A DNA stretch of 64,000 nucleotides from Taxawa tesnikishii (nom. ined.). Its lineage: Eukaryota; Ascomycota; Dothideomycetes; Dothideales. The stretch lies in NCBI GenBank assembly GCA_030247885.1, contig JAPDRO010000028.1, positions 186,001 through 250,000 on the forward strand. Direction: 5' to 3'. The notes beneath the pieces were generated by a model, which searched no databases, was not told the origin of the DNA, and worked only from the letters and a program-made list of their open reading frames with translations. Position 1 is the first letter of the stretch, and every line of letters starts with the position of its first letter. Of the stretch, positions 1,900-53,896 are shown piece after piece. Both the position numbers and the translations under genes were made by a program.

Positions 1900-4317
1900 A
1901 TGGCCCAGGACTTCAACATGGACGACTTCACTCCTCCTCCTCCCTCTCAATTGCCGCCTCCATTGCCCCCTCCGCCGCGCGACTACAGCCCGAACGCCTT
2001 CTACCGGAGCAGCTCCGTGACCAGTCGTTCAACTGACGCACCTTCCTCCACAGCTGTCGCGACTTCCATTTCTGTCGGAGAAACCGACGACGGCAACCCT
2101 CGTCCACGTCGGCCCAGCTTCTCCTTCCTTTCGCGCACAAAATCGCACAACGTTCCAACTACGCGCAGTCCTTCTGGCCAAACAATGCTGCGCAAACAGA
2201 AGCTGCGCGACCAGGAGGAGCGCCTGCGTCAACAGCACGCTGCCTCCGTCGCCACGCCTCCTCCCCGTCTCCCTTCACACAGTCCACTTCCCACCATCAA
2301 TACCTTTGGCGGCGAAGAGGCACGTCCAGACTCCGTTGCTATCATTTCAAACAAGGCCGGCAATTTCTCCAGACCCTCAGTCCGTATGTCCTCCGTCACC
2401 TCAGGCTCGAGTCCAGGACCTCACGGCGTGCCGATTCCGCAGTTCCATGGAAGCACCTCCCCTGCCGCGCTTGCTGCAAGAACAGGAGATCACGTGGACC
2501 TTCAGGCCAGGACTGAAAGCATCACCAACCGCGGCAGATACAGCTATGCGAGCGGTGCAGTCGGTAACGTGAACAGTCCAAGAAGAGTGCGCAGACGGAA
2601 GGACCCTACTCCGTTCAAGTGAGTGTTGAACTGACTAGGCTTCAAACTCGCCTGCCAGATTTAGTTCTCTTGCAATGCCCCACTTGCGGACCCCGTGGCT
2701 AACTTGAGATTGTCTCGCAGCATTCTTGTCATAGGAGCTAAGAACTCCGGCAAGACTTCGTTCATCGAACTTCTCCGTAATTCTCTCGCTCTTCCAGCCT
2801 CCAAGCGTGCGACTGGTTCCCCGCCGCCACATATGACCTCTCAGCACGACAGCTCAGCCTTCACTTCTTGTTACCTGGACACCGAAATCGAAGGCGAGCG
2901 CATTGGCCTGACGCTGTGGGACTCACAGGGTTTGGAGAAGCACATCATCGACCTCCAGCTTCGCGAGATGATATCGTTCATCGAGTCAAAATTCGAGGAA
3001 ACGTTCATGGAAGAGCAGAAAGTGATGCGTACCCCTGGCGTCAAGGACACCCATATCCACTGTGTCTTTCTTGTGCTGGATCCGGTGCGTCTGGATGCTA
3101 CCGTCGCCATATCAAGAGCAAAGAGGCAGCAATCGCACGGCATTGCTTTTGCAACATCACGTCCGGCCGGACTAGACGAAGACCTCGATCTTCAAGTCAT
3201 GAGGGCTCTTGCTGGCAAGACGACCGTTGTCCCAGTCATCAGCAAGGCAGACACACTCACCAATGCACACATGACATTCCTGAAGCGCAGCGTTTGGTCC
3301 AGTGTCCAAGCAGCAAAGCTTGATCCCCTGGAAGCTCTTGGTCTGGATGAAGATGAAGAAGGCGATGAGGATCCAGGCAGCGACGAACACGAGAGCTCTT
3401 CGGATGTAGAACTTCCAATCCAGAAGAACACCAAAGCCGCTCTCGTCGGCGAGGACAAAGACGAGGAAGAAGGCAATGACGACAGCGACATAATCGACAA
3501 CCTCATCGACCGTTCCGACTCGTCGTCGTCCGCGAGAACCGCTAGTTCCGTCACCACGCCCTCTCCCGCTCGTCAGAAACAAGCAGCCGGAAGCGGTCAC
3601 GCACGGTCCTTCTCTCAACTCAGCCGGTTCAGCAACACCGGTTCCTCGTCCGAAGACGTCTATATCCCCTTCTCCTTACTCAGCCCTGATCCCTACGATC
3701 CCTCGGTTCCGGGTCGTCAGTTTCCTTGGGGACTCGCAGATCCGTACAATCCGCTGCACTGTGATTTTGTCAGGCTGCGCGACAGTGTCTTCAATGAGTG
3801 GCGAGCAGAACTTCGCCTTGCCGCGCGCGAGAAATGGTACGTGTTGTCCCCACAGAATGTGTTAAGATGGTCGGTGTTCTCAACAGGCCGTCGTCGGCCT
3901 ACCTGAAACATCATTATGCAAATGCAAGCCCTTCAAGCAGCCCTGGAGGAACTTGAGAGATGCCTTCCAAGGGCATCGTCCGCCAGCTAGACGGCCTGTA
4001 TCGAACCCCGGGCACATGCTTCTTGCTCTCACAGAACTCTGCATCGTGATCGTGTCTTATGCTGACCCCCTCCCAGGTACGAAGGCTGGCGCACCAGCCG
4101 GCTTAAGCGGACCCCGCAGAGGATCAGACAAGCGGGCGGTGTCACCCCGGTTGCGGTCGTGCCTCGAGAAGGGAGGAGCAGCAGCGGCGCGGGTCATGAG
4201 CTGACCCCTATCGCCACGCCGACTCACAGAGCCGTCAGCGCGGGCAAGGCGGAGAAAGTGCTGGGTACGTCGTCCGCAGAGAAGGGCTTGTATCGAGGCC
4301 TTACTGCGTACCAGTGA
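1900..4317 (+). CDS. Septin-like GTPase with proline-rich N-terminus
   Basis: Three exons (1900-2618, 2721-3836, 4077-4317) joined in frame give about 691 residues. The first 238 residues are disordered and start with a proline-rich stretch. The joint between exons 1 and 2 makes FNILVIGAKNSGKTS, a septin beta-strand and P-loop (G1, about residues 239-253). The G3 region reads WDSQGLE instead of the usual DTPG, and G4 is SKAD. A long acidic and serine-rich insert follows (3330-3650). Exon 3 supplies YEGWRTSRL, like the septin helix after the G domain. No coiled coil is evident at the C-terminus. It resembles the divergent septin-domain proteins of filamentous ascomycetes rather than a core Cdc3/10/11/12 septin. 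It may act at the cell cortex, but GTPase activity cannot be inferred. Confidence 0.8.
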
Positions 4318-5349
4318 ATAGGGACGATGCGAAAAGAAAAGGAAACCGGGTTGAGGCGATGGCGGTATGGAGTGAGGGGTGTTGGAACGAGTGATGGTAT
4401 TCTCGAGCAGGTTCTCATCTGAGGGCATTCATACAGGTGATGGACGTCTGGAAGAAGTCATGGGGGTTGGGAAAGGAATGAAGAGAGGCGGGGCACAGCA
4501 TTCCTTTTCTGTCCTTGTTGCATTGTTTTTTTTTTCTTTTTGATGTCTTCTGGTGCGTCTTCTGATTTCGGCTTCCCTTGCTTGATATCCCCAACAGCTT
4601 GTTTCATAGGGTTGCATTCTGAAAACCCAGGGTTACGCTTTCTTGCTTTCAAAACATAATCGAGTATGCTAGTATGGGAAAATGTGTTCTCCGTTCTTGC
4701 ATGTATCTCAATTTTCCTTGTTGAAACCCTCGGCCGTGTGATGGCACTCCCGGACTAGAGGGCAATAGCAGCTCTTTCTACACCTCTCTTCCTTTCGTAC
4801 TCAGATCCCGGCACACCCGTAGTATGCATCCGCATGTCGATAGCACTTCCTCTTGATATCGAACGCGTTGATTGGGAAAATACGTCTGCTCTGCTTGACC
4901 GGTCCATCACCTACCTACTGCGTTCGTCGGCGGAAGCAAACCTCTGAAGTTGCTGGAGGTCGAACTTCGCGCTCACTTGCCGAAAGTTCCTATACCGGAT
5001 ATCCCATGTCAGTACAGCGGACAGCCGACGTTGAGGTAGCCAGTGGCAAACAAGTCCAGGCAATGACACAGGCAGGTATACAACACGGTTGTGTCGCGTG
5101 ACGAGTCAAGGAAAGCTGAAGGATAGCATGGTTGACGCCAAGGACCTCCCCCGCCCCACCTTCCTCTCCAGACATCCAGCTTCCGGCTCAGACACAACCG
5201 CGTACCAACAGTCAAACACAGCCTACCTTGCGCGCGCAACGCATTCCTTAATCCTCCAACACCGACGCGACAAACGCTGACTTGTGCGACCATCCGTTTC
5301 GCCCACTCTCGCGTCTACACCTATTCAAGCATCCACATCTACCGCAACC
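4318..5349. other. Intergenic region
   Basis: Spacer between the septin-like stop and the SNX3 ATG. It contains a T-rich run near 4527-4541 and pyrimidine-rich sequence before SNX3, and no open frame with a recognisable domain. Confidence 0.5.
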
Positions 5350-6084
5350 ATGCAGGCGATGCCGGATTCGCGCCAGCAGAGCTTCGAGGAAATCTACGGC
5401 CCGCCCGAGAACTTCCTCGAGATCGAGGTATGTCTTCCCTTCACCCTTCACCCTTCACACCCTTCGCCCTCTCCCCCTTCCGTTCCCTGCCCCCTTCCCA
5501 AACCCAACCGCGGCAGCAACGCCCTTCTAACCCACGCACCAAAACCCCCACAGGTCAAAGACCCACAAACACACGGCCTCACGCCCTCATCCCGCTACAC
5601 GACCTACCTAATAACCCTCTCCACCAACATCCCCTCCTTCAAGCTGCGCAACAGCGCCGTGCGCCGCCGCTACAGCGACTTCGAATACTTCCGCGACGTG
5701 CTCGAGCGCGAGAGCGCCCGCGTCACCATCCCCCTTGCCGGGAAAGGTCTACTTTAACAAGTTCGACGACGCCGTCATCGAGGAGCGCAGGAAGGGCCTC
5801 GAACGCTTCCTCAAGATCGTCGTTGGTCACCCGTTATTGCAGACCGGGAGCAGGGTTTTGGGTAGCTTTGTGCAGGGTGAGTTCGTTGCTTGCCTCTCCC
5901 CCTACTCCTCCTTCTTTTAGCTCCGGGATGGAATTGATACACACACACACACATACACACACACACACACCGGAGGATCGGGAGCCGAAGGGGAAAAAAG
6001 AAGGCTGCACGGCTCGATGCGGAACGGGCGATGCTAACCGTGTGTTCCTGTACAGATCCGAACTGGGATCGCAACGCGTGGTAG
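5350..6084 (+). CDS. SNX3: Sorting nexin SNX3/Grd19 (PX domain), frame broken
   Basis: Small PX-domain protein of retromer-linked endosome-to-Golgi recycling; it binds PtdIns3P. Exons are 5350-5427, 5554-5876 and 6056-6084. Exon 1 gives [16 protein letters not shown], typical of the SNX3 N-terminus. Exon 2 holds the PX core with [14 protein letters not shown] (phosphoinositide-binding Arg-Tyr region) and [19 protein letters not shown]. Exon 3 ends in DPNWDRNAW, the diagnostic SNX3 tail. About 142 residues, as in other fungi. At the C-run 5730-5734 the frame slips between VTIP and [10 protein letters not shown], by one extra or two missing bases. Both sides are well conserved, so a sequence error is likelier than a pseudogene. 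Confidence 0.85.
5939..5970 (+). repeat. (AC)n microsatellite in SNX3 intron 2
   Basis: Near-perfect AC dinucleotide run, interrupted once by AT, inside the last SNX3 intron. Confidence 0.9.
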
Positions 6085-6540
6085 AAGCTTAGCGAGTTGC
6101 CCCCGGTCACTGCACCCTCCTCCGCCTCGCAGGCCCCAGTTGTTTCCATTCGGAAAAAATAAATTGTATCAAGGGCGTACACTTGGGGCATTGTGCTCGC
6201 GAAGCAGCACCGGTTCCACGCGCGCAATTATCTCCCGTCACCCCTCCGTGGCACTCTTGGTCTTTTGCTACCGTGTTTTTTTTCCTCTGCGTTCTAGCGT
6301 CTTTGTAGCGTCTTTCTTTTTGTTTCATCAGAAAAAGGTTTTCATATGCTGTATGCATCCTATCGACATCCCTACTTCAGGTTAAAAAGACATGTGCAAG
6401 AAAGACCGTGATTCTCGCCATTCGTTCGTACAAGGGCGCGCCCCTAACGCCTTGCCCAGCCCACCGTGACTCTCCAACCCGCCCGCAAAGAGCAGAAAAA
6501 CGCCCCCAATCATGCCGAACGATGCGCCGCCTCGATATCA
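6085..6540. terminator. Shared 3' region of SNX3 and NVJ2-like gene
   Basis: The two genes converge here. The spacer has AATAAA-like sequence near 6158 on the plus strand and T-rich stretches near 6276 and 6316, compatible with polyadenylation signals for both strands. No gene seen. Confidence 0.4.
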
Positions 6541-9529
6541 TCAGGAGAAGCCCAGCGTAGCCTCCAAAATCTTGAGCCTTTCCTCCTCCGATCGCGCCGG
6601 GCCGAATCCGTGTTCACGCGCGAGATGCCTCCGTTCCCCCTCCTCCACCTCCTCCTCCTCCGTGCGCACTCTTGGGACCGATTCTGGCTCCTCGACCGCC
6701 GGCCGCCCGCCGGTTCGGCCATCGCCACCGGCTTCGCGTCCCAACTCCGCGTTCTTTTCCACAATCGGTGTGGAGGGCTTGCTTTCGTCCTCGGGCGCGG
6801 CGACGACGAGCAAGTCTTCGGGGATGGCGGCGTCCGTTTCGGCATCGCTTTGCTTGCGGGACCCGATGGGACGTCTGGCCGGAAGGGGAGGAGGAAGAGG
6901 CGGGGTAGTCGCGTTGCCGTCCATCGTCTCCCGTCGGGGTGGCAGCGCTGGCGGTACCGGCTTCCTCTTCAGCCCCAGATTGAGGCTGCTGCCCGACCAC
7001 AGGCTCTTTTGCGGGCCGGGGAGCGGCGTCCCGGGCGGTGGCAATGGTTGCCCGCGGCCGATGGGGCCGATGGGGGTGGAGCTGTGCGATGCGGCGGTCC
7101 TCGCAGCAAGCTGCGCACCGTCGAGGGAGGGGAGAGAGGTCGTGGATGAGGAGGCAGACTCGTAAGAGGCTGGGACTTGAGGCTTTGGCGACTTGGCCCC
7201 GTGGTTCTGTCGGTTGAGCACCTGCCATGACCACTTCTTGGCGGCGGCCGTAGCGGTGTTGATGTGCGCGTGCACGGCGGCGGAGCGATTGGCCGTTCTC
7301 CCGGTCCCTTGTGCTTCGTCATCGTTGGGGCCAGACGCGGGCTTGATGGTCGAGGACGAGGATGGACTTTCATCGGGTCGGACCGTCTCTGTAGAGCTGG
7401 CCAGGTCTGTCGACTCCTGCTGCTGACGCGAACGTTCTGCGACCTCTCGTTCGACATCGGATGCTTCGGCTACGGAGTTGTCGGAATTCGACACAAATGT
7501 ATCAGCATACTCTCCAGTCTTCATAGGCGATTGGGCCGGCGAATCCGGTTGGCTGAAGGATTCGGAACGGGACCTGACTTCCTTCATTGTTTCTACCGCG
7601 TCCCTCTGGCCTTTCTTGTTCCTTCTGTCCGCTCTGGCAGCCTCAACGTTAGCCCCGTCCACACTAACAAGGGGTGATGCTGCAGAAGCGAACGAGTTTG
7701 AGCGCAAGGGCTTTGGCTTCTCCGAGGAAGCACGGGCGTGAAGGGACGTTGCGTTCGGTGTGGAAGGCTCCGTTGCAGTACTTGAGGTTGACGTTCCATT
7801 GTCACCGCCATCCAAAGATGTGACGGATTTCCTCGCAGCTGATTTGCGGAATGAGAGGCCAGAGCTTGTTGGATCAACTAAAACGGGCATGCTCATCGTC
7901 TTCTCGCGCGTTTCGCTGAGACTTGGGATCCGAATTGATGCGTCGTCGGGATCATTCGCAGTGTTCACGGCGGTATGGGCTGCCGTCTCAAGCGCTCCAT
8001 GCACCGGTTCCTTCGAGTCTTGTGCAAGTGACGCATTTTTGGATCGTGTCCATATGCCGCCCCTGTATTTCTTACCAGACGTGTCCAGAAACGGGCTGTC
8101 GTCCCAGTTCGGCAGGACGACCGTCTCGCTTATCACCTCTCTGATCCTACTTTCAATAGCTCGAAGGATGACCCCGTACGTGATTTGCCTGGTGCTCACG
8201 ATAGGTTCGATACTCATTTCGAGTTGTGGCATATGCTCGAAGGCGAACCAGATCCGGTTGCTGGGAGGTGGCTTGACCCTGATTAGGACGTGACCACTAA
8301 GTTTTCGCAGGATTCCCGCAAGGACGAGGTCGACCTCCCGAACCTTAAATCGTGAGCCTAGGTCAATACGTGCAACAGCCGCGATTTGAATCTTGAAGCC
8401 TCCGTTGTACTTGATGTCTGCTTCGATCGTCATATCGCCTTCGATAGTCAGTTCCTTCAATTTTGGGTTAATGATCGTCGGCGCGCTATCACCCATGTCG
8501 ATATCTTGGATTTGTATCGATGCGATGAAGTTGGGTTTGGGAACGCGCGAGATCTTGCGATTGATCTTGGACCTGATAAAGTTTTCGATATCATCCGTCT
8601 TGTATAGTCCGAGGAAGATGCGGCCGACAATAGCGTTCAGCCACCTGGTTTGCGCGTCTGCATCAGAGCTGTGCAAGCGCTGAACCAGTTTGATGATATC
8701 AGCTGTTTCGAAGCGCTGGGGTTGCGGAATCTCATTGTCGTCTACCGCAGAAGCTTGAGACCGGAGCAAGGCATGATAGAAGTCTTCCTTCTCGGAGCAG
8801 TTGTCGGAGAAAAGATGAAAAGGCTTTGATGGAGGAGAGGTATCTCCCGGGAGCGGTTTCCTCCTCAACCGTATGCAATTCCTCTTGATCCAGAGGTCAC
8901 CCTCCGGAATCGCTTCACCTCCGGCATATACGTCAATCGTATGGTGTGTGAGAGATATGACGTGCCGTACTTCAAGCTGCTCGGAATCGTCGTAAAGCAT
9001 GAGGTGGCTGTGTCTGTTGTTTCTCAGCACGATTTGTACGACTGACGAGAGACCAGCACCAACCTCAATACCACATAGAACACGTTGCGACCCCTTTTCA
9101 CCGCCTTCCCGTCCCTCCGGTCTCCCTCCAACGTGGGTATAGAAGTCTTCCCTCTTTCAAAAATGCTCCGGTACATGCTCTGGTATACACTCGGACTTTC
9201 CGCTATAAGCACCTCGCCTGCCGGCGTCGAGCGTTCCGGTGGCTTGCCATTGATGCCTCCAGGAACATATTCTCTGCATACCGCGAAATATGCCGCTGCT
9301 ACTTCCGGTTCGTTGTGTGCAACTGTGCTCTTGGCCTCGATTCCATCTTCCGACAGGCTCTGGACGTCTGTGTGTGGGTCGCCGCCCTCTCTCTTTTCCC
9401 ATCACCCCCGAGATTTACATTGGATTTGGGCAGGGTCAGGTAAGCGTAGCCCAAGATTGTCAAGAGCAAGAGAGGAATGAAGGTGAGACCGCCGGCGACG
9501 TACACCAGAATCAGGGTCTTCAGAGCCAT
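6541..9529 (-). CDS. NVJ2: NVJ2/TEX2-type SMP-domain lipid-transfer protein
   Basis: About 969 residues in three exons (9406-9529, 9064-9367, 6541-9022). The protein starts MALKTLILVYVAGG with one N-terminal membrane segment (residues about 5-30). A PH-like region follows (HSHLMLYDDSEQLEV, YAGGEAIPEGDLWIKRNC). The SMP domain comes next, from about RWLNAIVGRIFLG to VVLPNWDD, with the family's PKLKELTIEGDM and FAFEHMPQLE segments. The C-terminal half is disordered, rich in Ser, Pro and Thr. In yeast, Nvj2 sits at ER contact sites and moves ceramide from ER to Golgi; TEX2 is the animal relative. Both inferred introns are very short (38 and 41 nt). They are needed to keep frame and produce family-like joints (NLGDVQSLSED; FYVVLRNNRHSH). 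Confidence 0.85.
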
Positions 9530-11308
9530 AGCCGTCGCACAAAGGCTCCAGGTTGTCCCGGCTCTCTCCTGGCCATAGAGAAGTGGCTCGCGAGCAGGTT
9601 GGTGGTGTTGGTCTGGATCACTACTGCCGCGATACCATGTAAATCGAGGGGTGTATACGGATTACGTACGTGGAAAGCGGGATGTTGCTATCCTTGGCGT
9701 CGGGAGTAGGCCATGCCACGTGGAGCATCATTTGTGCATCTTAATGATAGAGGAGGCAAAGACGTTTATTGGATGTCATAGACAAAGCATTAGGGTCTTC
9801 CGCGATATGCTCGTTACTAAAACCCCAAATCCGGGTATATATCTGCGATGAAGTAGGATAGTCACAGGCTCCCCGAGGGCTGAGCTGTTGAAAGGAACTA
9901 ACTGCATTCAAAATCTCACACTGCTACGTCGGAACACTGAGAATGATCATCAACATGTTCATCTACACCAACCATATTTCAAAACTTGTCAGTCGGTTTC
10001 TTGGTCCGCGTACACCCTTGATTCAGGCTGCAAGCGTCCACAGATGGCAGCAGTGTGGAGTCTTCCACATCTGTGTCCTCCCGAACAACAGCAACGGTCA
10101 GGTCTCTCCGCCAGCACTTTATGGTATGTCAGTGATGCTCTCCCTCTACGGCGTCATGATGTAATAAAGCCAATGGCTGCCAGGTAACATCTATTGTATC
10201 GACCTGCGACCTTCAGTGAGCAGAGTTTTGAAATGGATGTTGGTATCAAGTGAATCGCTTTATAGCGCTACTCAATAACGAATCCACCACACCACCGTGA
10301 CGGGCTGAACTTTGGCTCCGTTGCAATCTTCTTCGGAAGCTGCAGGCATGTACCACTGCATCCCTCAGTTGCTTGCCATCCTGGACTAGACTTGTGCGCT
10401 GGCTCTTTCGCTAGACGATCAAGGAAACTAGATTCTTTCGAGATGCTCGCTGCACCTCTCCTGTAACGCTTAGAAGCGTGGCACGGTCAATAGTACTGTG
10501 CAATCACCCGATGTGTATATATCGCTGGGCAGTAGCTGTGTGTGCTGGAAGCGCAAAAGGATCCTGTGGTGTTTCTGCACACACAGTGTATCCAGATATC
10601 GGCGCGCGTTGTGACCATCGAGCCGCAAAGGCTAAGCCTTTCAGATTCCCGTCGTGCATAGCGCGTAAAGGCGAGTATTACCAGCATTCAGGTTCCAAGC
10701 GGTGGGCTTTGTTTCTAACGCGCCAAGAGCGCATAACATATACTGTGTACAAACTGACGAGAAAGTGAAGTTGATTCCCGTGTCGCGTAATGCCGCTACA
10801 ACGCCCGGAGATTTGTTGTTGTCCGACCGCTTCAAACCAGATGGATATGGTGCTTCCAATGCCAGGAGTATTAAGTCTCATTTCAGGCTGGGTTGTGTGT
10901 TGTCTTGCGGGCGATGTCCTGCAACCCGTGAGATGAGGGCCCTGCCGGAGATGTACACAAATAAGCGTGGCAAAAGCATTGCACCTCGTATCATAATACC
11001 AGTCGCATCGTCTGGATGCGAAGGCTCATCGTATGAGATATGAGTGAGGCACGAGAAGGTGTAGGCATGAACAGTGATTACATTCTATGGATAAAGTATG
11101 TGACAGTAGTGGTGGCCGCTGTTCCTTCCCGACAACGTTTGCTCTTGGCGAAATCAAAGCCAGGGAGCCGGACTCAACGACACCCCATTTGATCTTCTGG
11201 CCTGGTCTAGTCTCAACACCTCATATCACCACGAAACACTCATGCCTCTTCCGAAACACCGTCAGATGATAAGTGCATGCTCTGATACTCCGAGCAGTAC
11301 CGGGAGAC
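9530..11308. other. Gene-free region left of the mating-type genes
   Basis: 1.8 kb holding the NVJ2 promoter and the 3' flank of the next gene. Open frames are under 115 codons, overlap one another and resemble nothing. No repeat or RNA gene recognised. Confidence 0.45.
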
Positions 11309-12603
11309 TCATTCCATTGCACCAATGGATCCCACCATGTCGCTCAGGAGTCCCTCCGTCTCACTCAGGCGCCATTGGCGGAGAACCCAGGCCTTGAAAA
11401 CGGGCTGTGGTATGATTCTGTGGACACCTGCCAAGTCACCGAGAGCTTCTGCAACTGATGGAAGATCTTCATCTCCGAGCGCATTGGTCCACTCGTCATA
11501 CTAATCTTTGTCAGTAACGCCCATATCTCTGAGAATTATTCGACTTACCACTCCATAAGGTCTCTCCCCAAGATCGACCTATGATCTTATCAGCGGAAAC
11601 CCTTTTAAGATTTGTCTGGCCGTACTCACGATCTGCATCTTGGGGACGAGGATATCATTGCCGCACTCGATATAGGGTTTTCCAAGCAACAAGCGTTTGG
11701 CTGGTGGCTGTTATGCGTCAGTAAGTTCAGAGATCTCGGGAGTCGGACCAACCATTGAAAAATACTTGTCGCTCGGGTGCAGCTATCGATGAATTAATTT
11801 CTCATGTTTCCCATCTGTGAGTGAGAAGTGCAAGATACTAACATCGAGGAGACTGTCCATGATCTCTGTGAAGTCTGCGAGCCATTTCGCAGGTATGAGT
11901 TGGCCGGAGGGCGGCAAGACTTGCATGGAAGAGTTTTGTACATGCTCATACTGATGAGGCAGGTTCTTGACGGGTGGCCAGAATGGATTGTCACCTGGCT
12001 TGGACGTCACAGGCAGCCCAGGAGCTCCATCGTTCAGGAATTGATTCCAGGGGAGCAAAGCAGGCTTGTACGTCGGGCGAGCGACCCGGTTGTACTCCTC
12101 GCGCAACTCTTCCTGGATGGATGTTCGCACCATCTCGCGCTTTTTCCAGGCACCGATCACCTCCGCGATCTGCGCGGCCAGTGCAGCCGCTGCGGTCGTA
12201 AACTCTTTGTACTGATCCAAGGTTGCGAAGAGTGCGGGGTTCTGGCGAAGATGCAGGCATTCCTGCGTAATATTCTTCAAGTGGTCTTGTACAGGCTTGC
12301 GGTCGATCTGATCATGTTGAAAGATATAGGCATTGCGGAGAAACCTCAGGTCAGCGATGATCGCTGCGCACAGCTCGTCGACAGATTTGTCTTCTCGACC
12401 CATAATGGTGTCTGTATGCTCTGAGTTCCGAACGCTGATGTGATTTTAGCGAACGATGCAGACTGACCTGCTCCGATGTGAGTGAGAATATCGTCGTGCT
12501 CTTGTGAGAGCTTCAAGGTAGCGGACGATGGGCGTTTGCTTTCTGCGCTTGCATCGGATATGATTGACTGTCTGGGTTGGTGCGCGGCAGAATCTCTAGT
12601 CAT
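11309..12603 (-). CDS. Mating-type-linked protein of unknown function (MAT1-1-10 candidate)
   Basis: Six exons can be joined with every junction in frame: 12468-12603, 11843-12420, 11753-11782, 11630-11707, 11549-11578 and 11309-11500, giving 347 residues. Two exons are only 30 nt. Introns are 45-60 nt with GTNNGT donors and AG acceptors. The protein is mixed alpha-helical with no signal peptide or membrane segment. Visible stretches include ADLRFLRNAYIFQHDQID, an Ala-rich helix (TTAAAALAAQIAEVIGAWKK), WLADFTEIMDSLLD and VYDEWTNALGDEDLPSV. I recognise no domain. It diverges from MAT1-1-1 across 403 bases, the place where MAT1-1-10 occurs in Mycosphaerellaceae and Teratosphaeriaceae. That identity is inferred from position; the coding status is well supported by the clean splicing. 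Confidence 0.75.
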
Positions 12604-13006
12604 TGCAAAGTAAGTGATGAGAGAAGGGTTGGAGTTGTTGATGGTAAGTTGCGCGAACTAGCGAGGGATTTATGTGTGTAGGTGGGTCTATCGAACAATA
12701 GTATCTCCTGGCATTGAAGCCGGAACAGTGACTCAAAATTATCACATGCTCGCTTTACTTCACTACTAAGAGCTTCAGTGAATTTCGTTTAGCCTCAAGT
12801 GAGAGTCGTAAACTCGGTGGTTAGGTACCAGCCATTTCATTTCCACAGCAACGCTGTGTCTCAAAAGTTTCCCCTTGCAGTCCAACTTCCGAGACATTTC
12901 CTTTCACATTCCATCACACACAATTCGACGACCAACTTGCCGTTTTCGCACATACCTTTGTTACACGGCACAGCTCCGCCAGTAACCAGACATTTCCGCA
13001 TACGCC
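12604..13006. promoter_or_regulatory. Bidirectional promoter of MAT1-1-1 and its divergent neighbour
   Basis: 403 bases between the two start codons, with no gene of its own. Both 5' UTRs and promoters must lie here, so the two genes may be co-regulated. Confidence 0.6.
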
Positions 13007-14243
13007 ATGTCTTCCATCAGCTTGTCGGCGACGATGGGAAAGATCCTCACGAAATACACACAAGAAGAGATCGCTGAAATTGTCGCTGGCGTGTTCAACA
13101 TGCAGCCAGAGACAGCTGCGGCTGCAGTTCAGCCAGCTGTCGCTGTCGCTGCTGGCGCAACCTCGCAGCGCAAGAAGCGCTCTAAGAAGACGACAACCTC
13201 GAAGACTGCAAACAGCATTGCTCCGTCTCGGCCATTGAACGCTTGGATGGCCTTCCGAAGTAAGTAAACACCCGTTCACACCTCCGTCAGTAAGTTGTTT
13301 TAACAAGTTGTTAGCCTACCTGGCACCAATCTTCAAGTCTTTCCAACAGAAGGACATCTCCGGCCTCATGACCATCCTCTGGCAGAACGATCCTTTCAAG
13401 GCGAAGTGGAGCATCGTCGCAAAGGGCTACTCAATGATTCGCGAGCACCACACCAAGGACGCTGCACCTCTGGACGTGTTCCTCGTTATCGTCTGCCCAC
13501 ATATTGGCCTCGTCGATCGTCAGGAGTATCTGTCCATCATGGGCTGGGAAGTCGTTGGAGAGAATGGTGCGAAGAAGCTTGAGCGTCGCTACGAACCCGA
13601 TATCGCATTGTTCCCAGAGTGTTACCTGACCACCAACCTCTCTGCTGAGGACGTTGTCGCTTTCTGCTATCACGCCAACTACGTCCAGGATGGCGGCGCC
13701 ATCACACGCAACCGCAACGATGCCGCTACGCTTACCATGGCTGCACAGCCTACCCCTGTCGCTGTCCCTCAGCAAGCTCAGGATATTGCAGCCCAGGCTG
13801 ATGGAAATGCGTGGATCGACGATTTCATGACCAACTGGTCGGTCCCCGCCGCACCTCGTCCCTACAGCGCTGCACCGCTTGCGCAACCGTCCGCAGACAC
13901 AGATGACTCTGAACTGGCTCGCGCGCTCAAAGAAGTCCTTGCGGAGAACAACACCGAGGACTTCGGCATCTTGGGCGCCGGCACGGGTCAGCGCTGTCAG
14001 ACTGTCCAGGCCCTCGATCAGTCGGGCTTCCAGTATCCGTATAACGAGGAGTTCTCGCCTCTGAACACCTCCACACTTAGCTTCGATCCCTACATGGGAA
14101 ACGGCCGACTCTCTGAGTCGGTCTCTGCGCCCGAAATGGGCAACTACGCGACTGCGGGCAACAACCTCACCGCCGACGACTTCGATCTCAACAACTTCCT
14201 GAACCATGACATCTTCGATCTCAACACTGCTGGGCAGCGCTGA
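13007..14243 (+). CDS. MAT1-1-1: Mating-type protein MAT1-1-1 (alpha-box transcription factor)
   Basis: Master regulator of MAT1-1 mating identity, a nuclear DNA-binding protein. Exons 13007-13259 and 13315-14243 (55-base intron) encode 393 residues. The alpha box runs from about residue 75 to 170. It starts RPLNAWMAFRTYLAPIFK, with the intron falling inside it as in other ascomycetes. It continues through LWQNDPFKAKWSIVAKGYS, VFLVIVCPHIG and YLSIMGWEV. A basic KKRSKKTT segment just before the box may serve as nuclear signal. The C-terminal half is Ala/Pro/Asn-rich and poorly conserved, ending with FDLNNFLNHDIFDL, which looks like an acidic activation segment. The frame is clean. A second, downstream intron found in some relatives is not apparent. 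Confidence 0.95.
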
Positions 14244-16997
14244 GTCCCCGCCCCCGCCAGCATCACTTGCATTCGTTGTCCTTTCTTTGTCGCGGCTACT
14301 GTAACCCTTGGGAAGCGATGAGTTCTTCCTGGGGTAAGTGCATTGGTCACCAGGCTTCAGGCTTGGGATGATTGTTGATACTTGCTTCTTTTTGTTTCCT
14401 TGAGATGCTCCATGTACATAGTTTGCAAGACCATGCCAGTATAGCGGCGGCCATAATGTGCATACAATGCAAGTGATTGTACTTTACAACTACACTTTGA
14501 ACATGCCTTCTGCCGTTCCATACTGTGACAATCATAACATGCCCGCTCGTTTGAGAATCCACAAAGCTCGTCCGACTTACCATCCTCCGCCGCTCCAGGT
14601 CCCTCAAAGGGGCCAAGTTCACCCCAATCCCATGCCTCACTCTCGTTGTCCACTTGTTCACATTCACCTACTAGACGCTGACTCACACGTGCCCCATCCC
14701 AACCTTTTCCCAGCCTCCCAGTAAAATCTTGCTGATCGGATCGTTATTCCCGCCTCAGCAAGCGCAAGAACGTCATGTCCATGCCAAGCCAATGCGTCGG
14801 TCACGTCGGTTTGAAATCCTGTTATTATGTCTTTGCCCGTGCATACAATTATCACGAGAAGTCGTTGTCGCTGCTGGCACTGAGAGGAAGGAGTTGAAAA
14901 ACACGGAACAAGACTCATGCACTCAGCTTGCAGAAAGTGCGTGCAAGCGCCGTGATGAGAGATGCGGACCTGTAGTATATAGAACTCTCATCTACCACGT
15001 TGCACTTGAGAGACTGCGACGAGCGTACCGTTCTGCTGCCCGGAACGACGCCGTCCAACGAATGATGCGTCAACGAGACCAAGCTTGCTCAACCCGCAAA
15101 ATCTCCCACGTTCGGTCCGAGTTGGGATATGCGTTTTAGCTCCTCGTCCTGTTTCCTTCGGAAACCGATTTCTTCGTGCCATGATTGCTGCCCTTAACAA
15201 GGAAGACAGATTTGGGATTTTGGCTTTGTTCTCACGCATCTTGCTTTCAGGGCGGCCTGGCGGTATACCAAGGCGAAGATGGTGCACAGAGTGCAGCAAG
15301 CTGTACGCTGTTATCGTATCCCACCTTTGTGCTACCGCCCCTGCTTCCGCGGGACCATATAGGAAATACGCTCGCATGGATTTCCTGAAGTGCATCTACT
15401 GCCACCATCAGCTCATCTAAATGCCCAAGTTTGCGAAGCCCTCCTTGTTTGTTTACTTTCTCAATGCATCTTATCTCTCACACCCGGCCCCGTACAGCTC
15501 CCGCCAGTCAGTCACACCAAAACATACTTCGTCTCAGGCGCAGGTGCAACTCTTGTTTCCATCCTGCTACCGTGCCAACAAGTGTTATCCCCAGGGTCTG
15601 GACTCTTACTGCGAGCGTTCCCCAGCCACCCAATATCTGCCTTCCTTCCCTGACGTGAGGCCGGTAGCCGCAGCAGTGAGTAAAGCTATCCCCAACCCCT
15701 CTTCAGATGTGGTTGGGGCGCTGTAACACATACCGGATATAACGTTCCTCTGAATTCCGGATGATATTGGTGGGAATAACGGTCCTGTTCTTGGCTCGAG
15801 TTGTTACGGTAGATAAGCAGCATCTCGTGAAACCGACGTCGAGGTCGAGGACCTGTTGCTCCAGCATGTGAAGATGACGTCGGAGTCCCCAGCAGCGGGT
15901 CGGGTGCGTTGGGAAGTCGGTTTCGGGACGGTGCTTGGATGTCGAAGAGGGCGGGCGGCGCGCCAAGCACAAGAACTCACACGTCGCCCTCTCCGTACAT
16001 GCCGCTGCCGCCCCAAGGAGTATAGCAATGCGGATGTTCGCGACCTTGCCATGGTGACGGTGCATCGAGAATGCCGTTGCGGGACCGTACGCCGATTGAC
16101 GGATAGCGCAAGATCCTCACCAACGCAAGCGTGTTCGCCGGATATGCTGCGCCACGCGCGCTTTCTGTATTAATACAGTACTGAGGCCGGCATATGGATG
16201 ACTTTGGAAGTGGCCGCGCGACACCCAAACTGAAGCCCCGCAGATCTCGCCGGCAAGGGACCGTATGCATGCCTTGCTAACACTCGCTCTCCTCGATGGC
16301 ACTGCCGAGCATGCCCCGAGTTATGAGCATGCACGCTCTCCTCACTAGCTTCTTTTGATGTGTAGCTTTGCCATGGGTGTTCTCATGGCGAGGTCCGCTG
16401 TTAGGGGAGGCATATACAGAGCCACAAGAACCGACACTTGCCACAGCATATCCTCCTACCACCGTGTCAGTCCCGCCATTTGATGCACAGCTACACTGTG
16501 ACGTGATGCGGAACACCAGAGAACCGAACCGCATTGTCTTCTCCTCTCGACATGTGGGCCGTTCAAATGCACTGTGTATGATGGTTCATGCGCATGAGAA
16601 GGCGAACCGTTGAAACGGGGTAGTAGTTGTGACAAAAAGGATGTGAGACGTGCGCTCACCTCTTGCCCGCAATGCTCCGTGGCCTCTACGCTTCTACCAT
16701 CTTGTGTCGTGTCATGAATGCATTGGGTATGCGGTTCATGTACATATTGATGCGAGATGCTGGCATGAAATGATGGATTTGCCAAATGGGACGGAAGCTG
16801 TTCACCGTTTTAGTCATCCGCAACGGTAGACGACCTTACAATCTTCCTCTTGCACGTACGTTCCGAGATCTTGCGCCGCACGGCGATTTGGTATACGGGG
16901 AGGCGGAGGGCTAGAGTGACATGGTAGGTTCAATGGATTTGATGTAATTCTTACGACTTATTTACTTACAATGCTCACCTCATCTCGTCCACACCAG
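14244..16997. other. Gene-poor stretch between MAT1-1-1 and APN2
   Basis: 2.75 kb with no convincing gene. A minus-strand frame at 14357-14686 includes an acidic run (ESEAWDWGELGPFEGPG) followed by a possible donor GTAAGT near 14580, which could be a gene remnant, but no family is recognisable. The rest has only short overlapping frames. Part of this stretch is probably idiomorph-specific sequence. Confidence 0.4.
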
Positions 16998-19107
16998 TTA
17001 ACCCACGCCTTCACCCTTCCAATCGCTGCTCCAGATGAACGTCTTACACCTCCACTGCGTACCCGTTTCCTTCGCGCCACTCGGTCCTAACGGTCTCGCA
17101 CACATCCAAAAACTGCGTCCTTGATTCTCGCCCTTCTTGCGCGTGAGCATGCTCTTACAGGGCTCGCCGTGACCCTCACAGAGCGGCGCAGCCGGTTTAC
17201 GGAAGAGCGTCGTCCAGGATTCTTTCGAAACGATTGGGTCATGCACTGTTTTAGCGGACGAGAACGCGGAAGGTTGCGAGGGAGAAAGTGGTGGTAGCGG
17301 TGGGTGGGGTGGCGCGGTAGAAGAGGCTGAGGGTGATTCGTAAAAGGCAGCAGAAGGATGAGCCTCACTGGCTGATGGAAGATCGACGGCGGCGTCAGTG
17401 TTGGTCACGTTGGGCTCTACCACGTCAAGACCTTGCAAGTCAACATGAGCGTCTTGCGTTGTCTGTGTTCCGTTACTGATGAGCTGTTCGTGGCTTCTGG
17501 AAGGCTGAGGGTTGGATTCGCGCACGAGAAAGCCTTTCAGGCTTTGTTGGCCCCTTGAGACATCTTGCTTGGCTGAGGCAGAAGGATTGGATTTGGTCCG
17601 CTTAGTTGTCTTGCTGACTGGAGCATCGGATGCCTTACGCTTCTTGTCGGTGCTGGTTGCGGTCGGGGAGACTGCCGGAAGAGGTCTGACGGCTGATCCC
17701 GGCGCTGTTGATCCAGTGGGTGTTGCAGACAGGGCTCCTCCCTCTACAGAGGCGGGTCCACCTGTCGGAAGAGCATCTTTGGTGGGGGAAGCTGTTTGTC
17801 CGGAAAATGCATTGGCAGTGCTGGGTTTCTTGAACATGTCTTTGATGCTTCTCCTCTTGTCAAATTCTGGAAGAAGTCTGCCGCTGAATGCGGGAATGTC
17901 TTTGGTATTCCACTCCCGTTGCCTTTGTCCGTTGACGAACATGCCGGGTGGATTCATAATGTCAAGAAGGTGCACATCAAGATTCTGGTCTAAAGCTTGA
18001 ACCGTAACCACGTTTTTGAACACGCCATACACGGGGCAATGATCGGAACCCTAAACGACCAAAAAAGGATCAGAATCAGCACGGTCAAAAATCAACGAAC
18101 CCAGCATAGCATACCATTAACCCTTCCTGAATGTTCGCTTCTACAAACCAATCCTCCATATCATGACTGGCAAGTACGTAATCAATCCTGCTGCCGTAGT
18201 TTCCCGGCCTTGCGTTGATCTTCTGCTCCCAGTGGGTGTACATGCCTTTCCTGTCAGGATGAAACTCCCGCACCACATCCACCAGCACAGGTGTCTCACG
18301 GCCTTCATCTCTTTCCCCGACGACGTCACCCCGAACAGCATCTGATTGAAGATACGACGGTTCGGAGTGCTGACGTAGTCTTCGTGGGTCAGACCAGCTT
18401 TCTTGATGTCTTCGAGGGCAGAGGCAGTATCGATCTCGCTTCTTGAGACGTTGAGATCGCCAACGAGTACGACTCTCTTGCCCATCTTGACCAAATTCCT
18501 GATACGGCAGTCCAGCGCACCGAGGAAGCCGTAGCGAAAATCGTCTCGCAGGCCGTTGGAGTTTGCGGGACTGTAGACACCGAAGAGAACAAAGGCCGGG
18601 AACTCCAGACATACACAGCGGCCTTCGGCATCGAGCAGAGCCGGATCCACTCCCAGTTCGGCAATCTGCAGCTCTGATGGATAACCACCGATATGTTGAG
18701 ATTCCGGAAGGTCTCGATATTGTGTGATTGAGTTGGGAGGGCAGAGAACACCCAACAAACCTTCTTCGGCCCGGATGGGAGCGCAAGTGGCGTTGCGTGT
18801 GTATATGCCAACACCCGAGTAGCCTGTGACGATGGAATGAGCAAGCACTTGGATCGGATGCGGCGACATAGGCTGCAGCGGTGGGCATGAGTACCTTTTT
18901 GTGCTTTGGGAGACTGAAGTAGCAGTCCCATCCGTCATTGAGGACCATGTCATCGCGCAAGTCTTTCCTCTGAATCTTCAGCTCTTGCATCACGACAATG
19001 TCGGCCTCGAGGATGTCGAACATGGCAGAGAACGTCTTGGATATGCTCCATGGCTGATATCCGAAGGGGTTGCGGATGCCGTTCACGTTCCATGTGGTGA
19101 GTCTCAT
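16998..19107 (-). CDS. APN2: DNA-(apurinic/apyrimidinic) lyase Apn2
   Basis: Class II AP endonuclease of the EEP (exonuclease III) family for base-excision repair, and a standard flank of ascomycete MAT loci. Exons are 18895-19107, 18115-18823 and 16998-18050, about 658 residues. The start MRLTTWNVNGIRNPF is the family's conserved first strand. Catalytic landmarks are MQELKIQ (metal-binding Glu), GDLNVS (Asp/Asn) and GSDHCPV (catalytic His), the last formed across intron 2. A disordered linker leads to a C-terminal GRF zinc finger (CEGHGEPC ... FWMCARP ... WRCKTFIW). An upstream ATG at 19146 is less likely. The frame slips by one missing base in the G-run 18329-18332, before GERDEGRETPVL. A second base seems missing at the exon 1 donor (about 18894). 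Confidence 0.93.
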
Positions 19108-19469
19108 GTTGCAGATATGTACATCCTCACAAAACCACCCCTTCACCCCTCAGTGATCCTCCAGAGAAGTCTGAACCTCTGCCAGCGTCAGTGCCAGTGT
19201 CAGTGTCAGTATCAGGCTGTAGCACGCGCCACGACACGTCCAAGGCAGGAAACGACGTGAGTGGTGACGTCTATCGGCCTCGCTCTCGCTTCGCGCGTTT
19301 CAGGCGCGTTAGCCGAGGTTTATCCGGATCAGTACGTAGTAACATATCATGCGATGGTAATGCCAAGGAATGTCGTCTGACCATGCGCGGAACTTCCCAC
19401 CTGTGAACTTGACCTCACTGCTTCAGCAAGCTTCAGGAACACTGTACAACCACATACAACACCACCACA
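19108..19469. promoter_or_regulatory. Divergent promoter region APN2/COX13
   Basis: 362 bases between the two start codons. An imperfect CAGTGT repeat lies at about 19190-19215. No other gene seen. Confidence 0.5.
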
Positions 19470-20193
19470 ATGCTGTCCCGCCGCCTCGCAACCACGCAAC
19501 TGCGCTCTCCAATCTTGCGCCAGCTCGGCCGCCGCCAGCTGCACGGTGCTGGCCAAGAAGGTCTCCAGGGCGCCGCCGACAACGCATTCAACCGCGAGCG
19601 TGCCGCTGTCAAGGAGCACGCTGCTGCGACTAGTGGTGCGTACCATACCTCTCTCTCTCTCTCTCTCTCCACACGCCTGCAGTCGCTGAGGCGTTCCGCA
19701 TTTTACAATAGCTGACATGGGCCAATGGCAGACACCTGGCGCAAGCTCTCCATCTAGTACGGCCTTCCTCCCTCTATGTGCGACCTCGCGACGCATTGAC
19801 ATCCCCACCCTGTTGTTAAGAGATGGGAAAGCAATACGGGCTGACGTTCGGAAACAGTGTCGTGATCCCTTCCATCATCATCGCTGGCGTCAACGCATGG
19901 GGTCTCTGGGTCGAGCACTGGGAGCACAAGTCGCACGAGCCTCCAATTGAGGAGCGCAATGAGTACGCATATCAGAACATCCGGACGAAGAACTTCTTCT
20001 GGGGCGACGGTGACAAGGTAAATACCCCTTCTGCGGCTATTCACCACAAACTTCCTCGCATGCCCCCAGGGTTTCATGGACATTACTCACACACTGCATG
20101 TGTTATCTGGGCGCGCGAGGTAGGCTGACGATCGTTCGATAGACCCTCTTCTGGAACCCCAACGTCAACCACCACAAGAAGCCCGAGGCCTAG
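19470..20193 (+). CDS. COX13: Cytochrome c oxidase subunit VIa (Cox13)
   Basis: Nuclear-encoded subunit of mitochondrial complex IV in the inner membrane. Exons are 19470-19635, 19732-19756 (25-nt microexon), 19858-20017 and 20143-20193, about 133 residues. The N-terminus is an Arg-rich mitochondrial presequence (MLSRRLATTQLRSPILRQ). Joining the microexon gives DTWRKLSIYVVIPSIIIAG, the start of the single membrane helix. HWEHKSHEPPIEER and YQNIRTKNFFWGDGDK match the family's conserved C-terminal half. Directly beside APN2, as in many Pezizomycotina MAT regions. Confidence 0.93.
19649..19669 (+). repeat. (CT)n microsatellite in COX13 intron 1
   Basis: Pure CT dinucleotide run inside the first COX13 intron. 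Confidence 0.85.
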
Positions 20194-20750
20194 TAAATGG
20201 GTCCTCAAGGGCGCATTTCTTCATTCAGTCACCCGCCGCGAAACCATGCTGGAGGGCTAGTGGAAGATGCAGAAGTCAAAGGGTAGTGCGGATCTCAGGC
20301 ATTTGTAAATACTACGCAACGATAAACCAAATTCTGTGTCCTGATCCCAACTTGATCGGGAAGATTCCCTGTTTTGGTTTTTCGTGTTCTCTCTTTCACG
20401 ATCAACACCCCAATATACTAGGCTTCTTTTCTTGGTCTGTTCCTGTCCCGGTACTGTGAAATAAGCTGGTGGGCATTATCTTGTCACATATAGTGGACTG
20501 GTGATGTTGCTCGGAACCTGGCACTAGATGTTGATCATGGGAGTGGAGAGCGACGAAAGGAGAGATATCAAACAAGTGATGAAGTCGAAAGGACCTTCCG
20601 GCACTTACTGATGCAAATGCAGGCATCCGTTCGCTTGTGTTGCAAAGGCACCACATTCGGTCGGTACATGTGCCTAATCTCTCGCGTTCCGACAGATCTG
20701 AGCAGACGCAAGTGGAACCAAGAACCAGACAAACAACTACGTAAAACGTT
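20194..20750. terminator. Convergent 3' flanks of COX13 and the CLC gene
   Basis: 557 bases between two convergent stop codons, with only short meaningless frames. It presumably contains the 3' UTRs and polyadenylation sites. Confidence 0.4.
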
Positions 20751-50556: not shown

Positions 50557-53500
50557 TTACTCCTCCTCACGGTACGAGATCTTCCGCATTTCACCTAATT
50601 CGTGTCTTGCAGCACTGAGTGCATTCTCCAACTGCAGAATTTGCACCTGGTATCCATCGTCAGCATCCGAGTGCGGAAGAAAAGGGAAGCATAAACACAT
50701 ACCTGCTTCTCCATCTCCTGGACCTTAAACTCGTGCCCACTGAGCTTCGTGTAGTCAACAGCCTCATCGCCCGTCCTCTTACCCTCAATGATCGCCTGCA
50801 CCTGCCTGACAAGACTCCTGCACGCGCTCGTGACCGCCTTACTTGCGTCCTCAAGGCGCTCTTGCGTCTTGCTCATGAAGCCCGCGCGGACTCTGCTGGC
50901 GGCGACGAGCTGCGCGGTAGCGGCGCTGACATTGTTGGCCGCCACGATCAGGCGCTCGGGTTCGTTACGCCCGCTGATAACGCCATCGGCAGTCTCGATG
51001 AGCGTGTTGGTACCGCTAGCAACGGCCTTGGCGGCGGAGATGAGACCTTCGGTCCACCTGCTGTTCTTCTTGTAGAACTGGGCCTTGGAGCTCGTACCAC
51101 GTCCTTCGCGCACAATCTCCTCTTGCGAGGCGGTCGCGGCTTTGATCAGCTGCGCGATGGCGTTTGTGACCATGATGGCTGCCTCAAGGATCGAGTCGTG
51201 CACCTTGAGCTCGTAAGTCGAGTAGCCGTCGCGGGGTTTGTTCATGAGCTTGTTCAGGCGTTCGGCCGCGGCGTCGATGGCGCGGGCGGCGTTGGCCAGC
51301 TCTCGGTCGACCACTTCGCCCAGATCGCCACCGCCGGAGGTGATCTTGGACTTCGGTGCGAAGGCGTCGGCAATTTTGGAAAGGTTGTTTAAATTGACTT
51401 GGACTTCGTTGTTCCTGTTGATGACGACGTCGGTCTTTTCGAGGTCGTCCCGGCCTTCCAGTCGGTAGCTTTGGATTGAACGGAAGAAGCTGACGGTGCT
51501 TGCGGCTGATTGGCGGGCTGCGCTGATGAGTTGGTCGCCCTTCTTGTCGTCCGAGGCGAACCGCGTGAGACCCTTGGTGTTCGATAGAACGTCTGCGATG
51601 GCGCCGGAGAAGGTCAGGGTGGTACGGATAACCTCTGCATGGTCGCTGTTTGGTCCATCGGCGATGAAGTTGTTGAAGGCAGTGGAGAACTCCATTGCGC
51701 TTGAAGCGGCCTTCTCAATTGTGGACAGGACGAAAGCACCAGTGGCATTCTGGTTGCCAGCATTCATGGTAGAGTCCAGCTCGTAAAGGGCATCATCCAC
51801 TCTCTGAACACCTCCTTGGAGGACGGAGTCAATCAGATCGTTGATCCTGCGGATGTTGTCGAGCAGGACGGTATCAATCTGCTCGTTCAAAGCGTTGTCG
51901 GTGTCGCCTTGGCCGTTACGGAGTTCGTTGAGTTCCAGGAGCGTCTGATCCATGCCAGCCTTGAAGATCTCAAGCTCTTCCTCCTTCTCGCGCAGTTGCC
52001 GCTCCAGGTCAGAGTCACCTTCCCGGAACTTCATCTGGATATCATCAAGCTGACGAGTCTTGTTACGCAGGGCTTCTTCGAGATCCGCAATCTCCCTGTT
52101 ATGTCGAGACAACAGAGCAGAAAGTTCGGAACCCTTTCCTCTCTCCGCATTCTCGGCCTTCTCCAGAGCAAAACGAAGCTCTCTCTTGAGTTTCTCCACT
52201 TCTTCCTTGTGGCCGCCGGTAGTCCGGTCTTTGTCGTGCAAAGCGCGATCTCTTTCGCGTATCATGTTTGCCAGTTCCAGGTTCTTCGTCTTCAGTTCCC
52301 GCTGCAGCTTTTCCCTCTGATCGATTGCTTCTTGCGCCGAGGCTGCCTTCAACTGAACACCCTTGAATTTCTGCAGCAGCTCCAGATGCTCGTGCCGCAA
52401 TTGCGAGTACAGCTTTGCCAGGGCTTCATATTTTGTCCTCCAGGTGTTGATCTGCTCTTGTAAGGCGCGGATTTGCTCATCCTTGGAAGCTGATTGCTGG
52501 CTGAAGTTGGCGTTGAGCTGTTGAAGCTCACCTTCCAATGCCTTCATTCTCCGGTCGTATTGTTCCAACATGAGCTGGTCCCGCTCGTACTGAGCTCTTG
52601 CGCTGAGATTCTCACGCTCCAGTTCTGCCATCCTTCCTTGGGTCTGCTGTTGGTATTGGTCCCGCATGAGCTGCTCTTCAGCCAACCTCATCTGCTCCGC
52701 TTGCAACCGCTGTTGCTCTTCGAATTCCCTCTGTGCTCTCAGAGCCTGCTCTTGTTGTCGCCTCTGCGCTTCTTCCTGTTGCGCCTGCAACCTTCGCTGC
52801 TCTTCCGCATACTCTTCCTGCTGGCGTTGCTGCTCGTTCTTCCAGAACTCATTGATGGGCTCGGGATCTGTTGTCGGCGCTCTTGCTGGAGGGATTTCTG
52901 CAGGAGGAGGTTCGTTCTTCGGTCTCGCAGGCAAAGCGGGCCTGGACTCATCGTCCTCAGAGAGAAGGTTGGGAGGGTCTTGTGGTAGCTTCGGTACTGT
53001 AATCAGGCTGGTAAGGTACCGAAGATTCGAGCACTCGTAGTAGAACTTGACGAGCCGGTAGTGTTGTGCATCGTAACGGCCGCGCAGCGGGGAGAGAGCC
53101 TCATCGTCTCCGAGGGACGTGTGCATAGCGCGCAGCATGCTGGTGATGAACTTGTAGATACCGTAACTCTCCTGCACTAGAGGCACCAATGCGGAGATCC
53201 GGCACTCGTTGTTCGCACCAGCACTGAAGTTTGCGAAGATCAACTTCTGGAATGTATCGATCTGGTCCTGCAGTGTCATCAAATCCGAGATCGTCTCGTA
53301 GCCCTCGTTGGGGTCATTGATCGACTTCAAGCTGATGTACTCCTCGTACTCGAAGGTGCCGTTGAATTCGGGGTGATTCCGGTGGAAGGTCAGCTTAGCG
53401 ATCAGGTAGTAGACGTATTCCGAGATGAGCGGCCCGTATCCTCGCATCCCCATCCCGTCCGTACCAGACATGCCTCTTGACAGGCTCTCCAACCATCCAA

Positions 53501-53896
53501 TATTTGCCTGGGCTTCCTTTAAGGCCACTGGGTGACCCTCCTGGAGGACCTTGTGTATCGTGATGAGGGCCTTAAAGGTCTGGACCTCATCCGCCATGAT
53601 AGGCTGCACCTTCATCCCTGCCCAGAAGGATTGGGAAGACTTGTGATCCCATGTGTAGACAATGCAACTTCGCACATGTTTCCCTATCTCTTCATGAGCG
53701 TATGCGCCGTGCCGGCAGTGGTGGGTGGGACGTACGTTTCGGCGCGGTCTCCTCGACGCTGGTTGCTTTGCGAATATTGATGGCAAGTTCGGACTCGGAC
53801 CTGATGCCTGTTAATCCTGGCACGGGTATGTGTTCCTGGCGAGGCGTATGATACTTACTTGCCCATGTCCACGTTGCGCGTAGCGTGGTAAGCCAT
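50557..53896 (-). CDS. SLA2: Endocytic actin adaptor Sla2/End4 (HIP1R family)
   Basis: Couples clathrin-coated pits to actin at the plasma membrane; SLA2 is a standard MAT-locus neighbour in ascomycetes. Exons are 53859-53896, 53736-53800, 50703-53683 and 50557-50646. The first joints make MAYHATRNVDMGKSESEL and then APKRKHVRSCIVYTWDHK, the start of the ANTH domain. That domain binds PtdIns(4,5)P2 and spans about residues 10-270. A proline-rich linker and a long Gln/Glu-rich coiled coil follow (about 300-640). The C-terminal I/LWEQ (THATCH) actin-binding domain includes ILEAAIMVTNAIAQLIKAAT and ends near KLSGHEFKVQEMEKQ. The last exon adds VQILQLENALSAARHELG. About 1,057 residues, with a clean frame. 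Confidence 0.95.

Follow-up and report, generated by a model that had tools for sequence, protein, structure and literature searches.

We analysed a window of 64,000 nt, i.e. the whole stretch of DNA at bases 186001-250000 of contig C21 (384,398 bp), and the interval 11309-14243 of this window is a MAT1-1 mating-type locus. MAT1-1-1 (13007-14243, + strand) has one intron and encodes a protein of 393 aa that matches the Pfam model MATalpha_HMGbox (PF04769) with 138.1 bits (E 3e-40, cut-off 28.1); its codon score was 0.340 per codon. An earlier sequence-only reading had called an alpha box in MAT1-1-1 and had identified the locus as MAT1-1, and this match bears out both claims. The second gene, here referred to as the divergent gene, is on the - strand with its ATG at 12603 and its stop codon ending at 11309. 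It adjoins MAT1-1-1, with 403 bp between the two start codons, as expected of MAT1-1-10.

The gene that we take to be APN2, from its domains and from synteny, lies 2.8 kb to the right of MAT1-1-1, and a presumed SLA2 lies ~36 kb to the right; both are usual MAT neighbours, and having the two nearby is the company expected of a MAT1-1 locus. To the left, the flanking gene encodes PH and SMP-type domains and is presumably NVJ2-like. In Cladosporium fulvum, by contrast to this proximity, SLA2 is 1.43 Mb away from MAT1-2-1 according to an excerpt of PMC9453070. The fungus described here looks heterothallic and is a dothideomycete, probably a member of the Mycosphaerellaceae. The coordinates of the features are given in Table 1.

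Table 1. Features of the locus and its neighbours (positions in the window) and loci with MAT-gene pieces (positions on the named contig)
Feature	Position	Strand	Evidence or remark
MAT1-1-1 exon 1	13007..13259	+	spliced frame open across 393 aa
MAT1-1-1 intron (55 nt, GT-AG)	13260..13314	+	missing from the C1 fragment
MAT1-1-1 exon 2 (most of alpha box, C-terminal part)	13315..14243	+	PF04769
Interval between both start codons (403 bp)	12604..13006	.	probable shared promoter (putative role)
Divergent gene (MAT1-1-10 candidate) exon 1	12468..12603	-	in-frame codon score
Divergent gene exon 2	11843..12420	-	codon score; pieces at C29 and C34
Divergent gene exon 3 (30 nt)	11753..11782	-	weakly supported
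Divergent gene exon 4	11630..11707	-	gene model, codon score
Divergent gene exon 5 (30 nt)	11549..11578	-	splice signals, not codon score
Divergent gene exon 6 and stop	11309..11500	-	gene model, codon score
Left flanking gene, PH and SMP-type (MMM1 model) domains (probably NVJ2-like)	6541..9156	-	PF15413, PF10296
Presumed APN2 (endonuclease part and GRF zinc ribbon)	16998..19149	-	PF03372 and PF06839
Presumed SLA2	50595..53810	-	ANTH and I/LWEQ domains
Firm fragment locus	C1:1665451-1666106		
Firm fragment locus	C3:298057-298595		
Firm fragment locus	C12:1947888-1948090		
Firm fragment locus	C13:33185-33337		
Firm fragment locus	C23:751644-751846		
Firm fragment locus	C29:131417-131572		
Firm fragment locus	C29:275124-275322		
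Firm fragment locus	C31:1050495-1051551		
Firm fragment locus	C34:914619-914789		
Weak tenth fragment locus	C34:91476-91568		divergent-gene exon 6 piece; genome-wide E 1.22 and 0.50

Two further observations concern the surroundings of the locus. A septin-domain frame is present to the left of MAT (window 2665-3906), and its end region matches C32:798051-798274, perhaps a paralogue. At window 57927-59174, ~44 kb from MAT, an open frame with ArgoN and ArgoL1 domains represents the start of an argonaute gene.

The divergent gene has a coding signal beyond chance

The divergent gene consists of six exons of 136, 578, 30, 78, 30 and 192 nt, which are separated by five GT-AG introns of 45-60 nt and encode a protein of 347 aa. 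The outer coordinates, the number of exons, the two 30-nt exons and the protein length proposed from sequence alone were all reproduced; of this model, the 30-nt exons stay provisional.

The codon score of the divergent gene was 0.210 per codon, which is akin to that of conserved genes in the window and ~8 sd above the score of 2000 shuffles (-0.151, sd 0.043, highest -0.001); the other two forward frames scored ~-0.15. When both strands were compared, exons 1, 2, 4 and 6 each had their best codon score in the frame of the model. We conclude that the divergent gene is real. Exons 3 and 5 had a negative in-frame codon score and were beaten by some other frame. Moreover, both are phase 0 and the frame stays open if either is skipped, and therefore the frame is no proof of these two exons. 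Among 4000 dinucleotide shuffles, 0.45% yielded a microexon of the exon 5 type together with its splice signals. Exon 3 fails the splice-signal rule of exon 5 because the distance between its branch-site motif and the AG is larger than permitted. In total, we regard exons 3 and 5 as provisional, and exon 3 as weakly supported.

The sequence-only reading had also stated that the protein contains no known domain, and this stands: against Pfam, the 347-aa protein gave three weak matches (best E 0.13) and none above the cut-off. Among PDB sequences there were two matches, neither significant (best E 0.73), and among viral contigs there was no match. Exon 2 folded alone, as a single sequence, gave a model with helices only and a mean pLDDT of 60.9, in which 70 of the 192 residues were below 50; compared with PDB folds, this model gave 54 matches at E up to 10 and 0 at E <=0.001, and no fold was assignable. 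Altogether, no DNA-binding domain was found in the product of the divergent gene by comparison with Pfam, with PDB sequences or, for exon 2, with PDB folds.

Pieces of both genes lie elsewhere in the genome

The genome itself (29.37 Mb, 34 contigs) was searched for pieces of the MAT genes at the protein and DNA level, and ten loci were then compared locally. Because the search scores the best candidates only, the fragment counts given here are lower bounds. Decayed pieces were present at nine firm loci on eight contigs, with a weak tenth locus. Pieces of MAT1-1-1 were detected on C1, C3, C12, C13, C23, C29 and C31, while for the divergent gene two pieces are firm, one is probable and one further piece is weak. 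The two firm pieces, at C29:131417-131572 and C34:914619-914789, are from exon 2 and correspond to window 12084-12220 and 12198-12338 (protein E 5.7e-12 and 6.7e-13; DNA E 2.2e-33 and 9.8e-17 for C29 and C34, respectively). The probable piece, on C23, is from exon 1 (window 12506-12597, 70% identity, E 3.6e-4 with only the ten compared loci searched); it was noticed only once the C23 locus had been extracted and is not strong. Short pieces of MAT1-1-1 together with a MAT1-2-1-like piece (see below) are thus located outside MAT1, which is what defines MAT fragments in Mycosphaerellaceae.

In two of the own-genome searches, all non-self matches listed fell at fragment loci (12/12 at E <=1; 11/11 at E <=10). 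As a control, the flanks at window 2600-9400 and 16950-24400 were used in a DNA search at E <=0.001; it returned two septin-region matches, one CLC-channel-region match and many CA-type microsatellite matches, identified by their position, and no MAT-type pieces. This control was sensitive enough because the pieces in the matching search all had E <=1.3e-6. Within 9400-16950, the pieces span 11364-14322, and neither 9400-11363 nor 14323-16950 had matches.

The pieces tile the spliced MAT1-1-1 transcript and one lacks the intron

The MAT1-1-1 pieces cover 1253 of the 1340 nt of the spliced transcript. By random placement, 857 nt are covered on average if the C3 locus is left out (P 2e-5) and 910 nt if it is included (P 1.6e-4); we prefer the former value, since the pieces on C1 and C29 are overlaid by C3 as a second layer. 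This test was post hoc, used hulls of collinear pieces and had its span set by the outermost pieces. The intron edge was off by one base in the tiling, spliced-alignment and splice-signal tests, which alters the length of the transcript by 1 nt and leaves the conclusions unchanged. Where tiles next to each other on MAT1-1-1 overlap, they do so by 8, 14, 23 and 28 nt, the last of which becomes 12 nt without one 19-nt exact match, and the gaps between other tiles are 32 and 55 nt. The divergent gene shows an overlap as well, of 23 nt, between its two pieces from exon 2.

A piece on C1 crosses the site of the MAT1-1-1 intron, and the intron is missing: the alignment scored 283 bits when spliced, vs 200 and 102 bits for its two parts taken unspliced. 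This is the only intron-spanning fragment, and 0 junctions of the divergent gene are spanned. The C1 locus itself consists of two MAT1-1-1 pieces that are 253 bp apart and share the above-mentioned 23-nt overlap in gene coordinates; this split has the look of an insertion accompanied by duplication of its target, or of a staggered break that was filled in.

Both the tiling and the loss of the intron favour an origin of the pieces from processed transcripts, which bears on how MAT fragments arise. The main competitor, tentative yet with an appreciable share of the probability, is that the pieces are repeated small DNA copies of the locus, such as repair patches, rather than one processed copy. 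The second layer on C3 and the uneven identity of the pieces (see below) fit repeated copying, as does the orientation of the divergent gene on the opposite strand, for which a processed origin would need a transcript of its own; tiles that overlap by 8-28 nt and the missing intron argue against it.

The pieces have decayed unevenly

With one exact 19-nt match set aside, the identity of the pieces to the genes is uneven, from 70% to 95%, and is highest for C31 over 14136-14245. At this range of identity, homogenisation of the pieces with the genes is not evident. Among the gene-to-fragment changes, 34 of 94 were synonymous for the divergent gene (expected share 0.276, P 0.043) and 70 of 203 for MAT1-1-1 (expected share 0.279, P 0.023); the excess is weak, with third-position tests alone giving P 0.08 and 0.19. 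A slight synonymous excess is expected if one side, either the gene or the piece, is under selection. Moreover, pooled over the nine fragment loci and the weak tenth, one stop-making change was seen vs ~11 expected if all differences were neutral (P 2e-4) and vs ~5.5 expected if half of the differences arose on the side of the gene (P 0.03).

Repeat-induced point mutation was considered as a cause of the decay and rejected: there were 66 C>T and 55 G>A changes and, in the opposite direction, 69 T>C and 43 A>G changes.

A MAT1-2-1-like piece is embedded between MAT1-1-1 pieces on C31

At C31:1050495-1051551, ~530 bp with a MAT1-2-1-like HMG piece separate the coding end of MAT1-1-1 from MAT1-1-1 3'-flank. 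The HMG piece, in decayed surroundings, matches the Pfam model over the cut-off with E 1.0e-4 and covers 42 of 69 HMG positions. This arrangement is what a MAT1-2-1 gene joined at the stop codon of MAT1-1-1 would leave; across the present join, the reading frame is broken. No second copy of the MAT1-2-1-like stretch was found in the own genome.

Nine HMG-box matches are present genome-wide, and only the C31 piece looks MAT1-2-1-like when judged by eye. The others were considered as candidates for a hidden MAT1-2-1: the match at C34:174064 seems, by eye, to belong to an amine-oxidase-like protein that carries an HMG box, and the remaining ones do not look MAT1-2-1-like by eye.

The divergent gene is most likely the Mycosphaerellales MAT1-1-10

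Our main reading, to which we assign a probability of about 0.7, is that in this MAT1-1 locus the divergent gene is the MAT1-1-10 orthologue, that it shares a promoter with MAT1-1-1 and acts as its accessory partner, and that the scattered pieces are remains of processed MAT transcripts. MAT1-1-1 would encode the alpha-box transcription factor that sets the mating type. The 403-bp interval is probably a two-way promoter common to both genes, and the divergent gene would therefore be made in the same cells as MAT1-1-1. Judged by its position only, its product is most likely an accessory partner in MAT1-1-specific development and not a regulator; we know of no function for MAT1-1-10. The pieces would be the broken remains of spliced MAT transcripts, including those of the divergent gene, and their source would be an ancestor with MAT1-1-1 joined to MAT1-2-1.

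With orthology judged from position and the like, the divergent gene is most likely the Mycosphaerellales MAT1-1-10. The name fits because the gene is beside MAT1-1-1, contains no known domain, agrees with the gene content in Teratosphaeria and has left pieces scattered alongside those of MAT1-1-1. In Teratosphaeria pseudoeucalypti, two MAT1-1 isolates carry MAT1-1-1 and MAT1-1-10 in the idiomorph, as described in a portion of PMC7513301; the locus analysed here is the same in that MAT1-1-1 is accompanied by a second gene, a likeness of gene content as far as that portion goes. The gene and the locus thus most likely belong to an already known kind, i.e. MAT1-1 with MAT1-1-10. The name has to be qualified because it is used in both Morchella and Teratosphaeria. 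An excerpt of PMC9318749 states that MAT1-1-10 was first named in Morchella, where it is a gene of the MAT1-1 idiomorph and has small homologous fragments in the MAT1-2 idiomorph. Within what that excerpt covers, name and place in the MAT1-1 idiomorph are alike while nothing shows that the genes are the same, and the Morchella fragments sit at the MAT locus, not elsewhere in the genome.

An unlikely alternative is that the divergent gene is not MAT1-1-10 and instead is a lineage-specific, mating-type-linked gene of the idiomorph. That searches of Pfam, PDB and viral contigs detected no homologue would suit such a gene; however, the Teratosphaeria MAT1-1 idiomorph, as far as described in that source, already pairs MAT1-1-1 with MAT1-1-10, and a second, unrelated gene in this place is a less simple explanation. 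Still less probable, in our judgement, is an ordinary flanking gene that is present in both mating types and unrelated to mating. Genes common to both idiomorphs exist elsewhere, with MATORF1 and MATORF2 reportedly being of this type in Pseudocercospora fijiensis; nevertheless, the pieces derive from the divergent gene and MAT1-1-1, and none from the flanks tested. Like MAT1-1-1, the divergent gene is found as pieces, and this ties it to mating biology without recourse to a MAT1-2 strain. Finally, it is very improbable that the gene model is partly wrong or that the gene is a decaying pseudogene: the frame-neutral 30-nt exons with their negative in-frame score and the branch-site failure of exon 3 would agree with this, but exons 1, 2, 4 and 6 score best in the frame of the model and the whole frame is open.

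The pieces extend a known pattern of MAT fragments

For Cercospora beticola, Bolton et al. 2014 reportedly suggested that the pieces arose by retroposition, in a homothallic ancestor whose MAT genes were joined, and the present data agree with this proposal. Exon pieces of both MAT alleles are present in C. beticola, according to an excerpt of PMC5431814 citing Bolton et al. 2014. The genome analysed here is the same, so far as that excerpt describes the system, in having exon pieces of MAT1-1-1 and a MAT1-2-1-like piece away from the intact MAT1 idiomorph; in addition, pieces of the divergent gene are found here. Similarly, many Pseudocercospora and Cercospora genomes have numerous expressed short MAT-related fragments of unknown origin and function, as stated in part of PMC13041039 (2026, citing Aylward et al. 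2022). Compared with that statement, numerous short MAT-related pieces outside MAT1 are also found here, where they are known from DNA alone, and the tiling statistics and the intron loss are added. In a literature search that did not cover Aylward et al. 2022, no published report of pieces of the Mycosphaerellales MAT1-1-10 was found. This genome offers a worked example of a divergent gene that, like MAT1-1-1, left pieces across the genome, and we consider this the more interesting part of the result.

A more far-reaching version of the main reading, which we offer as speculation with low odds, is that all pieces go back to a single event. In a self-fertile ancestor that had MAT1-2-1 joined to the end of MAT1-1-1, spliced transcripts would have undergone reverse transcription, with the divergent gene copied too, and the copies would have ended up in pieces on eight or more contigs. 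Some pieces might still act, e.g. by serving as a template for small RNA or in gene conversion of MAT. Activity of some pieces would account for stop-making changes being rarer than under neutral decay.

At C23:751644-751846, the piece of divergent-gene exon 1 lies 70 bp from a MAT1-1-1 5'-leader piece, and the two read in the same direction, unlike the divergent gene pair of today.
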